Assembly: GCF_039655865.1 (NCBI RefSeq)
Contig: NZ_JBBYXL010000004.1
Location: 248,001-312,000, forward strand
DNA length: 64,000 bases
Source of the DNA: Prosthecobacter sp. SYSU 5D2
GTDB taxonomy: Bacteria; Verrucomicrobiota; Verrucomicrobiia; Verrucomicrobiales; Verrucomicrobiaceae
Direction of reading: 5' to 3'
Shown piece after piece: positions 29,108-35,912 of this stretch; the first letter of the stretch is position 1; every line of letters begins with the position of its first letter. The notes under the pieces were generated by a model. That model was not told the DNA's origin, made no database searches, and was given only the letters and a program-made list of their open reading frames with translations. Position numbers and translations under genes: made by a program.

Positions 29108-30124
29108 TCAGGACTGTGGGGAACCTGTATCTGTGCCGGCAATCTTGGTGCGCATGTCGGTATCGGCGGAGATGTTTTTGTAACGGGCGAAGTCCATGAT
29201 GCCGAGGTTGCCGTTGCGGAAGGCTTCGGCCATGGCCATGGGGATCTGAGCTTCGGCCTCGACGACGCGGGCGCGCATTTCCTGGGTGCGGGCGGACATT
29301 TCCTGCTCCACCGCGACGGCGGCGGCACGGCGGACTTCGGCATTGGCCTGGGCGATCTTTTTGTCCGTCTCGGCCTGCTCGGCCTGGAGCTTGGCACCGA
29401 CGTTTTCGCCCACGTCAATGTCGGCGATGTCAATGGAGAGGATCTCGAAGGCGGTGCCTGCATCCACGCCTTTGGTGAGGACCAGCTTGGAGATGCTGTC
29501 GGGATTTTCGAGCACGGATTTATAGGAAGGGGCGGAGCCGATGCTGCTGACGATGCCTTCACCCACACGGGCGACGACGGTTTCTTCCGTGGCACCGCCA
29601 ATAAAGCGGTCCAGGTTGGTGCGGACAGTCACACGGGCACGGACTCGGAGGGAGATGCCGTCTTTGGCCACGGCATCAATCTTGCCGCCACGGCCCATGT
29701 CGTTGCTGGGGCAGTCAATCACCTTGGGGTTGATGCTGGTGCGCACGGCTTCCAGCACGGTTTTGGTGGTGCCTTTGCAAGCGAGGTCAATGGCACAGGC
29801 ACGTTTGAAATCCAGAGGGATGCCGGCCTTGTCCGCCGCGATGAGAGAGAGTACGACGTGGGTCACCTCGCCACCGGAGAGGTAGTGGGCTTCAAGCTGG
29901 TCCGTGCTGATGTTGAGCCCGGCCTTGGCGGCGGTGATGCGGGTATCCACAATCAGCGCATTGGGAATGCCGCGCAGATACATGGCCAGGAGATTGACAA
30001 TGCTGACCGGCGCATTGGAGATGCGGGCACGCAGCCAGAGGTTGAAAAACTTGGCGACGATCAAAAACAGGATGATTGCGACGATAATTGCGCCGCCGAC
30101 GAGGAGGAGTTGGAAGTTGGGCAT
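29108..30124 (-). CDS. floA: Flotillin-like protein FloA
   Basis: A 338-residue UPF0365/FloA protein of membrane microdomains. One N-terminal membrane segment (about 8-28, [19 protein letters not shown]) is followed by an SPFH-like domain with [27 protein letters not shown]-type strands and [20 protein letters not shown]. The C-terminal half is an Ala/Glu-rich coiled coil ([20 protein letters not shown]). Length and order fit FloA. It lies 14 bases after nfeD, the usual partner. Confidence 0.94.
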
Positions 30125-30138
30125 AGTGTTGGGTTAGG

Positions 30139-30639
30139 TTACGAGGGATTTGGAATGAGTCGAACAACAAGATTGCCAGGTTCGCTGCCAGTAATCCGGA
30201 CACGGGCTCCTTGGGGAGCAAAGCCGTCTTCGCAGCGCACTTCGCGCCGGTTGCCATTGAAGTCCACCCGTCCAAGAGGGCGCAGTTCAGTCAGTGTGGT
30301 GCCTTCGGTCCCATTGGCCAGCAGCATCGGTTGATCAGGGGATGGGATGGTCTCCTGCAAAGTGAAAGAATTGTGCCAGAACTTGATGGCAAAAAAGCGC
30401 AGCCACACCAGTTGCAGCACCACGGTGCCCACGACAATGCCGCAGGCCAGCGCACTGCGACCCCAGGCCGGCCAGTGGGAAAAATCGTCGGACCACAAAA
30501 CCAGAATGACTCCGGTAAGAACGCAGAGGGCACCAATCGAACCGGCGATCATGCCGGGCACGAAAGTCTCCAAAATCATCAGGAGAATTCCCAGGATCAC
30601 GATGATGGCGACGGTGATGACCATGTGTAAAATCATCAT
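30139..30639 (-). CDS. nfeD: NfeD-like membrane protein
   Basis: About 166 residues starting MMILHMVITVAIIVILGILL. Hydrophobic helices include LMILETFVPGMIAGSIGALC and an SALACGIVVGTVVLQLVWL helix. The C-terminal OB-fold soluble domain contains GTEGTTLTELRPLGRVDFNG and EDGFAPQGARVRITG, matching NfeD. These proteins work with flotillins, and floA follows immediately. The N-terminal serine-protease domain of long NfeD proteins is absent. An ATG at 30735 would add an improbable 32-residue leader. Confidence 0.9.
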   Translation of the reverse strand: MMILHMVITVAIIVILGILLMILETFVPGMIAGSIGALCVLTGVILVLWSDDFSHWPAWGRSALACGIVVGTVVLQLVWLRFFAIKFWHNSFTLQETIPSPDQPMLLANGTEGTTLTELRPLGRVDFNGNRREVRCEDGFAPQGARVRITGSEPGNLVVRLIPNPS

Positions 30640-30735
30640 GGCGGTTATCCATGGCAGCGTCAAGGTACACTGGTGGTGGAAGCCCGAACACAGTTTTAAA
30701 ACTTCATCCTTGTTTTGATGAAGAGCCGGGAACAC

Positions 30736-32851: not shown

Positions 32852-33637
32852 GTGCATGGCTACCATCTTGGGAACCTCTCCCAGGTTGGGGGCGGCCTGA
32901 TTTTCTGCACCCCTCTCATTTTTGTGAACCTCGCGCTCGTTTCCGGCTGTTGTTTGTGGCTCGGCGGGCTGGCGTTGCTGGCACCGGCGATGGCCGCGCC
33001 TGGAGCCGAAGCTGATTCGAGGCGCGTCCTGGATCTCAGCCGGCTGACTTTTCAGCGGAGCATTCTCGAAAAGAGCCTTGAGCCGCTGAAAAAGCACCTT
33101 TCCGAGCTGATGCTCCTGGAGAAAAGCCGGGCCCAGGCACGTGACTATGCGGGCGCGATCGAGGCACGCGACTTGCGCAAGCGCCTGGAGACGGAACTGG
33201 AACGGCTGGACAAGGAACTCCTGCTTTTACAGACCCGGGAAATGTCCATTCAGGCCAGTATGCTGCCTGACCGGATCCGCCTGCCATTGGACAAGGCAGA
33301 GCTGAAGGACGTAAGGCGTGAGGGAGGAACGCTGACGGGGTGGTCCAAACCCGGTGCACAAGCGGTGTGGAAACTGGACAAGCTGCCCCCTGGTGGCTAC
33401 GAGGTAATCCTGCGCTACCGGTGCAGTCCGCTGGAAGGCGGCTCGCTGGCGGTGCAGGAGTCCCGTTTTAGCCTGATGGCGGATGTGGAAACCACCCTGA
33501 AGGGGCCCCAGGACAAAAACCTGGGGACACTCAAGATCACAGACGGTACCGGTCCGCTGAAGATCACGGCGCGGACGGTCTTGAAGGACAATCTGATGCA
33601 CTTGTTATCCGTAGAACTGATACCTGCCAGCAAATGA
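32852..33637 (+). CDS. Exported coiled-coil / beta-sandwich protein, first of three relatives
   Basis: About 261 residues (237 if the GTG at 32924, giving MNLALVSGCCLWLGGLALLA, is the start). A signal peptide precedes a coiled coil (about 65-130, LEKSLEPLKKHLSELMLLEK, then KRLETELERLDKELLLLQ). The C-terminal domain has LTGWSKPGAQAVWKLDKLPP, GGYEVILRYRC and NLGTLKITDGTGPLKITAR, the strand pattern of a carbohydrate-binding-like beta sandwich. Function is unknown. It overlaps the next gene by four bases, and the following two products have the same plan. Confidence 0.75.
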   Translation: MHGYHLGNLSQVGGGLIFCTPLIFVNLALVSGCCLWLGGLALLAPAMAAPGAEADSRRVLDLSRLTFQRSILEKSLEPLKKHLSELMLLEKSRAQARDYAGAIEARDLRKRLETELERLDKELLLLQTREMSIQASMLPDRIRLPLDKAELKDVRREGGTLTGWSKPGAQAVWKLDKLPPGGYEVILRYRCSPLEGGSLAVQESRFSLMADVETTLKGPQDKNLGTLKITDGTGPLKITARTVLKDNLMHLLSVELIPASK

Positions 33638-35145
33638 TGAACAGGGTCCTTTCCAGATTCCATTTTCTCCTCCGCCCCGTAACAGCGGCTCTTGGGCTTG
33701 TGGTGACGGGCGGCCTTTTGGCCCAGACTCCGGATCCGGCACCGCTCGCGGTGGCACGGGCAGGTTTTCTGCGGCTGATCATGGCGGACTCACAGACGCT
33801 GACGGAGCAATACGAAAGGGCACTGGCCAAGATCGAGCAGGAGCTTGCTGAAGCCTCCGACTATGAAGAGGCGAGGCTGGTGCAGCAGCGCCGCACGGAG
33901 CTCAAGGCGCTCTACCTCACCAGTGATACGGCCATGGCCCAAAGCCTGCCATCTCCACTCCTGCCTGCTCAGGCGCGGTTCATCGGGTCCACAGAGGCGA
34001 GGGGAGACCTTATCTCCGGCTGGCGTACCAACAACAGCGGCGTGGAATGGTCGAACTTGCGGTTATCCCCGGGCAAATATTATCTGGAGCTGGAGGCCAA
34101 TCTGGTGGAGCTGCCGTCACTCCCCGGCACGCTGGTCCCCGGACGCTCAAGGCCGCAGGACAGCGCCGTGTTTGATTTTTATGAAGTGACCCTCCTGCCG
34201 GGCGCGGCAGAAAACCGGCGCTCCTTCGAGGTGAAGCTAAGCCAGGATGAAACCACGTTTGGACAGCTCAAGATCGGCCCGGTCAACTTTACCCGCAGTC
34301 CCGTGACCCTGCGCCTGATGGCCTCAAGCGGTTATCCAGGCAACCTGCTGCGGCTGCGCAACCTGCGGCTGGTACCAGTCACGGAGGAAGTGCCCACCAT
34401 TACCAGCCCGGCACCCCGGGGACCGTCGCTGGATGATCTAAAAAAGTCCATGAATGAAGCCCTCACAGAGGTGCAAAAACCCATCCTGGAAAGCTATCTG
34501 GATTCTCTACGCCTGATGGGGGCAGAAAATGCCGCTCTGAAAGATGCGGCGGATGCGGAAGCCAAGCGGCTGCTGAAGCTGATGGAAAACAGCCGCGGCC
34601 AGACGACGGGGCCGCTGCGCATCCTGGGCAACAATGGCGGGCTGAACGGCTTTGAAGATCTGGATGGGGCACGTTTTGTGGCAGATGCCGGCAACCGGGG
34701 GGACCGGTTTATGATTGAGCACGAAGGCCGCAAACAAAGCATCCGTCTGTTGTGGCTTCTGTGTGCGCCGCTTGATGCTGGGGACGAGGCTGCGAGCCGT
34801 GCCTTCAGCCGGCACTTCGGGCTGGGAGAAAGTGATGTAACGCCGCTGGGACGTACGGCGCAGGAGTTCACCGCCGGCTATCTGGACGGCAAAGAACTGC
34901 GCGTGCTGCTGCGCCCTGGCCGGGACAAGGATGGCACGGCCAATGCCCTGGTGTTCCTGCCTGAAATCGGCCTGTTTCAAAACGTGCTGGTGGACCAGGG
35001 ACTGGCGGCAGTCATCGCCCCCAAGGACCGTCGCGGCATGATGGAGAATGGATTGTTCGATTCTTTGTTAGACCGTGAAAAGGCTGCCAAAAGGCAGGAT
35101 CCACCCCCAGGCGCCTGGGGTCTCAGCGTTTCCTCTCCCAAATGA
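33634..35145 (+). CDS. Exported coiled-coil / beta-sandwich protein with SNase-like tail
   Basis: A 503-residue protein with a signal peptide (1-29). A coiled coil (about 50-90, TEQYERALAKIEQELAEASD) leads to the shared beta domain (about 120-250, ISGWRTNNSGVEWSNLRLSP, GKYYLELEANL, FGQLKIGPVNF). The last 170 residues (NRGDRFMIEHEGRKQSIRLL, CAPLDAGDEAA, LGRTAQEFTAGYLDGKELRV, VFLPEI, VDQGLAAVIA) follow the order of a staphylococcal-nuclease fold. The usual catalytic Arg and Glu cannot be confirmed, so it may be binding-only. It overlaps both neighbours by four bases. Confidence 0.75.
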   Translation: MMNRVLSRFHFLLRPVTAALGLVVTGGLLAQTPDPAPLAVARAGFLRLIMADSQTLTEQYERALAKIEQELAEASDYEEARLVQQRRTELKALYLTSDTAMAQSLPSPLLPAQARFIGSTEARGDLISGWRTNNSGVEWSNLRLSPGKYYLELEANLVELPSLPGTLVPGRSRPQDSAVFDFYEVTLLPGAAENRRSFEVKLSQDETTFGQLKIGPVNFTRSPVTLRLMASSGYPGNLLRLRNLRLVPVTEEVPTITSPAPRGPSLDDLKKSMNEALTEVQKPILESYLDSLRLMGAENAALKDAADAEAKRLLKLMENSRGQTTGPLRILGNNGGLNGFEDLDGARFVADAGNRGDRFMIEHEGRKQSIRLLWLLCAPLDAGDEAASRAFSRHFGLGESDVTPLGRTAQEFTAGYLDGKELRVLLRPGRDKDGTANALVFLPEIGLFQNVLVDQGLAAVIAPKDRRGMMENGLFDSLLDREKAAKRQDPPPGAWGLSVSSPK

Positions 35146-35912
35146 ACCTGCGTCTATTTTTATGCAGTTTTGCGTTCGCCCTTCCCTCCCTGGGAACGGC
35201 CCAGGTAACGCTGCCCGTGAACTCGGCCCCGGTATCTGCCAGTGGTGAAAACTCACGGCTCCGGCAGATGGAAACCATCTACCAGCTTCAACTGCGGGCG
35301 AAGCACATCCCGCTGCTGAGCAAATACATCACCGATCTGCAAGCCCTGGCGGAGCAGGCCCCGGACCCGATGCCCTATCAGCAGGAAATAGAGCGTATCC
35401 AGGGCATCATCAGCCGTGGAGGTGTGGTGGACCTCGCGGCAGCCGTGCAGTCACTCAAGACCCCGGCTGAAGCCCCGATCACGCAGCCCTTGCCTGCGCC
35501 CATGGGCAACAGGCGTGCGTTCATCGCCCTCACCCCTGCCCTGGCCCGCAGCATCAGCCCCACTCCGGATGGCAGCGCCAGCCCGGAAGCGGCTGCGATT
35601 GGCGAGATTGACTGGCGGATTGATTCCCTTCCAGCAGGCACCTATGACATCGTCCTGAACTATGCCTGCCCGAAACTGGACATGCCGCTGCAGGTCCGGC
35701 TAACCCTGGGCCGGGAAAAAGTGGAGGCGGTCATGGATGCCAGCAACCTGACCCCCACGGCCGATACTTTCGGCCTTGTGAAGCTGGGCCAGATCACCCT
35801 CGCCACAGAATTGCGCGGAGAAAGCCTGAAACTGAGCGCGGGAGACAAGACAGGCAATGCACTGCTCATCCGGCAGCTCGTCATCACCCGGACACGGGCG
35901 GCAGCGAACTGA
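35142..35912 (+). CDS. Exported coiled-coil / beta-sandwich protein, third of three relatives
   Basis: A 256-residue protein with a signal peptide (MNLRLFLCSFAFALPSLGTA). A helical stretch (ENSRLRQMETIYQLQLRAKH) is followed by a beta domain with EIDWRIDSLPAGTYDIVLNY and FGLVKLGQITLATELRGESL. The pattern W/I-x-LPxGxYxIxLxY with a later LGxLxI strand is the one seen in the two preceding products. Function is unknown. ATG overlaps the previous stop (ATGA). It is the last gene before a convergent HxlR regulator. Confidence 0.72.
   Translation: MNLRLFLCSFAFALPSLGTAQVTLPVNSAPVSASGENSRLRQMETIYQLQLRAKHIPLLSKYITDLQALAEQAPDPMPYQQEIERIQGIISRGGVVDLAAAVQSLKTPAEAPITQPLPAPMGNRRAFIALTPALARSISPTPDGSASPEAAAIGEIDWRIDSLPAGTYDIVLNYACPKLDMPLQVRLTLGREKVEAVMDASNLTPTADTFGLVKLGQITLATELRGESLKLSAGDKTGNALLIRQLVITRTRAAAN

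Follow-up and report, generated by a model that had tools for sequence, protein, structure and literature searches.

Three of the systems closest to the locus described here each resemble one part of it. UVR hairpins, known from UvrB/UvrC, Clp chaperones and DISC1, are pairing modules which link other domains, the F-x-x-A positions forming a head-to-head dimer interface (PMC13273187). Staphylococcal nuclease (SNase, PF00565) domains occur also in Tudor-SN, in which the non-canonical SN domains have lost catalytic residues and kept the fold; these degenerate domains can still cut RNA (PMC5900569). The third part is comparable to the carbohydrate-binding modules CBM6 and CBM35. In the genome of Prosthecobacter sp. 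SYSU 5D2 (Verrucomicrobiota; 5.87 Mb) parts of all three kinds are combined in three adjoining genes, here called P1, P2 and P3. These constitute a real, conserved and unnamed three-gene set, and no description of the combination was found in the papers and libraries searched.

The window, i.e. the whole stretch of DNA analysed, comprises 64,000 nucleotides (contig NZ_JBBYXL010000004.1, positions 248,001 to 312,000). P1, P2 and P3 are three plus-strand open reading frames, and their features, in window coordinates, are as follows.

32924..33637, plus strand: P1, 237 aa from the probable start GTG 32924; predicted export signal, hairpin A and beta sandwich
32924..32995 (end approximate), plus strand: N-terminal hydrophobic export segment of P1, from hydropathy
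33029..33241, plus strand: hairpin A of P1, with the UVR-like motif DYxxAIxxRD
33269..33634, plus strand: beta-sandwich domain of P1, by profile homology to the P2 and P3 beta domains
33634..33637, plus strand: ATGA stop/start overlap of P1 and P2, conserved in orthologues
33634..35145, plus strand: P2, 503 aa; predicted export signal, hairpin A, beta sandwich, hairpin B and SNase-like domain without the canonical catalytic residues
33634..33723 (end approximate), plus strand: N-terminal export segment of P2, from hydropathy
33745..33933, plus strand: hairpin A of P2 (model helices 36-73 and 77-97), homologous to the P1 hairpin
33943..34383, plus strand: internal beta-sandwich domain of P2 (residues ~104-250), by profile homology and strands 114-248 of the model
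34426..34599, plus strand: hairpin B of P2 (model helices 266-298 and 300-322), homologous to the P3 hairpin
34645..35133, plus strand: SNase-like domain of P2 (residues ~338-500), canonical catalytic set lost; Foldseek and residue table
35142..35145, plus strand: ATGA stop/start overlap of P2 and P3, conserved in orthologues
35142..35912, plus strand: P3, 256 aa; predicted export signal, hairpin B and beta sandwich
35142..35201 (end approximate), plus strand: N-terminal export segment of P3, from hydropathy
35247..35426, plus strand: hairpin B of P3 (model helices 36-72 and 77-91), by profile homology
35511..35897, plus strand: beta-sandwich domain of P3 with a CBM6/CBM35-like fold, from the predicted structure (pLDDT mostly >90) and Foldseek

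The longer reading frame of P1 begins with the GTG at 32852 (32852-33637). Since most P1 orthologues begin at the position corresponding to GTG 32924, the latter is probably the start. Each adjoining pair of genes overlaps by the four bases ATGA. The initial annotation had noted these two overlaps and proposed that the three proteins are made together; both overlaps are confirmed and recur in orthologues, which supports translational coupling. It had also assigned a signal peptide to each product and, in agreement with this, hydropathy analysis places a hydrophobic export-type segment at the start of P1, P2 and P3, with no obvious further membrane segment in any of them. All three proteins would thus leave the cytoplasm. 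They are under purifying selection, with dN/dS values of 0.09, 0.13 and 0.18 against one congener, which are rough estimates because synonymous sites are near saturation.

The distribution of the set was surveyed in 68 genomes of the family Verrucomicrobiaceae, 47 of them good (completeness ≥90%, contamination ≤5%). P1, P2 and P3 were each present in 47/47 good genomes, essentially as one copy, across 11 genera. The family is taken to be Verrucomicrobiaceae because the relatives found in named collections are Prosthecobacter, Brevifollis, Verrucomicrobium and further members of that family. The same triplet, which the initial annotation had suggested seeking in other Verrucomicrobiota, is therefore conserved, and can be regarded as a core trait of the whole family. 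P2 and P3 lay on one contig in all 65 genomes having both (counted from our tables), and P1 and P2 in 53 of 63; in the other ten P1 was still retained, on another contig. In three of these genomes (G005, G007 and G010) P1 is well inside a long contig, so that it is truly elsewhere and yet kept. Among 289 genomes of the phylum, full-length orthologues of P1 and P3 were found only in the six sampled members of the family, other matches being partial and confined to shared domains; relatives of P2 and P3 also exist in one other family of the order (genome G027). The plasmid collection contained no match to the three genes, and spread by plasmid was rejected on that basis.

The proteins were split into domains using alignments of approximately 22 orthologues each, and the resulting profiles were compared with one another and with 100 column-shuffled controls. 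The beta domains matched in every pairing, P1 with P2 at an E-value of 5.9e-12, P1 with P3 at 2e-7 and P2 with P3 at 2.7e-4, and in no case did any of the 100 shuffles reach the score. Judged by these profiles the three beta domains are homologous, which bears out the relatedness first proposed for them. That proposal had also given each protein a helical part followed by a C-terminal beta domain. Both parts are present, and the beta domains share a W-x-x-LPxGxY core; in P2, though, the beta domain is internal and the C-terminus has a different fold, discussed below.

Predicted structures cover P2 and P3. In the P3 model two helices (36-72, 77-91) precede a beta sandwich (127-250) that is predicted with high confidence. 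A Foldseek search of the PDB with this model placed CBM6 and CBM35 entries among the best matches (E about 1e-5 to 1e-4), the CBM6 of LamC giving a target TM-score of up to 0.72 at an E-value of about 1e-5. No member of the P1, P2 or P3 alignments matched a Pfam CBM model. Profile searches found this beta domain again in Verrucomicrobiota sulfatases (L179 in the window genome, L081 and L091) and an alpha-L-fucosidase (L182), in each case C-terminally, a placement shared with CBM6/CBM35 modules, and also in a SAM-domain protein (L181). The CBM6/CBM35-like fold and the presence of the domain in sulfatases and a fucosidase suggest a glycan-binding-like module. Compared with CBM6/CBM35 modules, the sandwiches of P1-P3 differ in standing on hairpin stalks in small exported proteins that lack an enzyme. 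Two Pfam hits were discarded, ribose-5-phosphate isomerase for P3 and Sas-6 for P1, both below the cut-off and limited to one or two members. The SAM-domain protein (L181:741-1823, plus strand) combines its SAM domain with the beta sandwich and has a DUF5077 match below threshold.

The helical parts fall into two classes. The P1 hairpin matched the first hairpin of P2 (E 5.8e-8) and the second hairpin of P2 matched that of P3 (E 3.1e-6), with none of 100 column shuffles as good in either case; short coiled-coil-like hairpins can resemble one another by composition, but the shuffled controls do not reproduce these scores. Cross-comparisons of the P1 or first P2 hairpin with the P3 or second P2 hairpin were no better than noise, since between 1 and 15 of 100 shuffles scored as well. 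On this profile evidence there are two unrelated classes, A in P1 and P2 and B in P2 and P3, P2 owning one of each.

Hairpin A carries at its turn a conserved D-Y-x-x-A followed by an Arg in the orthologue alignments. An antiparallel hairpin with F/Y-x-x-A at the turn, here between P2 helices 36-73 and 77-97, and the Arg that follows are features of UVR hairpins. The Y-x-x-A kept in hairpin A stands at the F-x-x-A positions of the UVR dimer interface, which favors a pairing role. Hairpin A differs from UVR hairpins in belonging to exported proteins, its similarity to them is not statistically significant, and hairpin B does not show the motif. Against solved structures, hairpin A found UvrB best (E 0.29) and DISC1 second (E 0.32), neither of them significant, and Pfam searches with P1, P2 and P3 gave no UVR match. 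The likeness of hairpin A to UVR is accordingly treated as a lead, not as membership. Elsewhere, a 407-aa protein with no Pfam match (L180:1915-3138, minus strand) contains two stretches resembling hairpin A.

The P2 model has a mean pLDDT of 77.8 and comprises a beta sandwich (114-248) and an alpha/beta domain (341-500); its pTM of 0.38 makes the relative placement of the parts unreliable. The alpha/beta domain, of which the initial annotation made no mention, proved to have the staphylococcal nuclease fold. The best 50 solved-structure matches in Foldseek were all staphylococcal nucleases, with E-values down to 7.7e-8, and the pLDDT is mostly >90 over residues 341-460. The sequence relation is fainter: Pfam SNase scored 17.8 bits on P2, under the cut-off of 21, and at E-values of up to 0.1 it is matched by 13 of 23 family members. 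By profile comparison this domain is unrelated to the beta domains. A P2 homolog in a different family of the order (L071) has its parts arranged in the same way, hairpin A first, then the beta sandwich, then hairpin B and last the SNase-like domain; in other genera this arrangement is seen wholly or for the most part. The earlier statement that the family could not be recognised thus holds to the extent that no library names the proteins; what can be recognised in them is a sandwich like that of CBM6/CBM35, in P1 and P2 a hairpin resembling UVR, and an SNase fold without canonical catalytic residues.

In the P2 of the window the positions of the catalytic residues D21, R35, D40, E43 and R87 are occupied by D, R, L, P and T. 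The full set is present in none of 26 P2 orthologues, compared with 20 of 22 other SNase homologs in the phylum. E43 is replaced by Pro in 23 of the 26 and by Ser or His in the other three, 24 have lost R87, and D40 is variable; Asp or Glu is kept at D21 in nearly all and Arg at R35 in most. The partner of R87 depends on the alignment, that of HMMER being slightly shifted, and E43 is lost in both alignments. A stand-alone SNase paralog with all five catalytic residues and an N-terminal hydrophobic segment is encoded elsewhere in the window genome (L083:2551-3189 on contig C15 of G000, minus strand). The SNase-like domain of P2 is likely inactive; the grade is likely and not proven because degenerate Tudor-SN domains can retain RNase activity. 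It shares with these the fold, a sequence relation and the loss of catalytic residues, and differs in that it occurs singly, joined to two hairpins and a beta sandwich in an exported bacterial protein. Long open frames (~860 to 1160 aa) of distantly related genomes in the phylum encode SNase-like domains that keep the catalytic set (L100, L104, L106, L107 and L110).

These observations may be joined in a single scheme. P1, P2 and P3 would have arisen by duplication and shuffling of a module of helical hairpin plus beta sandwich, and would come together on the outer side of the inner membrane, where P2 would bridge the other two by pairing its hairpin A with that of P1 and its hairpin B with that of P3. 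Such an assembly is plausible and has a specific basis because P2 holds both hairpin classes; about ten genomes in which P1 stands apart from P2-P3 speak against its being strictly co-translational. More weakly, the three CBM6/CBM35-like sandwiches might bind a glycan, either of the cell envelope or of an external polysaccharide, and the SNase-like domain of P2 might serve in binding rather than cutting. The best explanation found is an operon of duplicated modules encoding three exported proteins, which form a complex bridged by P2, with glycan-binding sandwiches and the SNase fold as a binding module; as a whole it is offered tentatively, at somewhat under an even chance. More doubtful is the further claim that the Verrucomicrobiaceae possess here a core complex of the envelope not described before, in which the A-A and B-B hairpins set the assembly, P2 is the bridge, three sandwiches bind glycan and the SNase fold has been taken over for binding.

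The three proteins could instead be independent, for example periplasmic glycan-binding proteins, which share a module common in Verrucomicrobiota and are co-expressed from an operon without forming a complex. The spread of the module or its beta domain through the phylum, in sulfatases, a fucosidase, the SAM-domain protein and another pair of tandem genes, favors this, as does the unlinked P1 of some genomes; that P1, P2 and P3 are co-retained in all 47 good genomes even where P1 is unlinked, and that P2 carries both hairpin classes, speaks against it and leaves it rather unlikely. A family-specific structural component of the envelope or of an appendage, for example of the prosthecae after which Prosthecobacter is named, has also to be considered in place of a device for carbohydrate binding. 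The near restriction to the family of the set, with full-length P1 and P3 only in its six sampled members, and its core status in all 11 genera would fit such a component, whereas the P2-P3 relatives in another family of the order would not, and we consider it improbable.

Least probable of the readings weighed is that P2 is an active secreted nuclease, which scavenges nucleic acids or acts in defence, and that P1 and P3 are binding proteins accessory to it. The SNase fold, the residues kept at D21 and R35 and the precedent of the degenerate Tudor-SN domains point towards it. The absence of the full catalytic set from every P2 orthologue, as against its presence in nearly all the other homologs, and the complete SNase homolog elsewhere in the window genome point away from it; loss of the catalytic residues removed an active nuclease as the leading view of P2, which may have some residual activity. 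Should the complex bridged by P2 be real, it would be a compact and testable example of duplicated pairing hairpins that specify the order of a complex, and would illustrate how an SNase domain can be retained once its canonical active site is gone. The cell envelope of the Verrucomicrobiota, about which little is known, would also become easier to approach.

The surroundings of the triplet were compared among the family loci, and no conserved functional neighbor hinting at a pathway was found. A larger conserved operon was rejected, the neighbors varying among subclades (e.g. squalene/phytoene synthase, M48 and M20 peptidases, an NHL-repeat protein). Because neighboring genes are not conserved beyond subclades, the unit is the triplet or the P2-P3 pair. 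The locus contained no structured RNA or riboswitch, and neither an operon-specific promoter nor an operon-specific terminator was found, promoter-like sites being at chance level and terminator-like sites only mildly above shuffles. A flotillin-type pair, FloA (29108-30124; Pfam E 8e-145) and an NfeD-like protein (30139-30735), is encoded near the triplet on the minus strand; no link between the two was seen.

In a genome from another family of the order (G026), a tandem pair of genes (L082:3438-6223, minus strand) likewise overlaps by ATGA and specifies three hairpin-like plus beta-like modules. It differs from P1-P3 in lacking an SNase-like domain and in matching them weakly domain by domain, and is possibly a parallel assembly.
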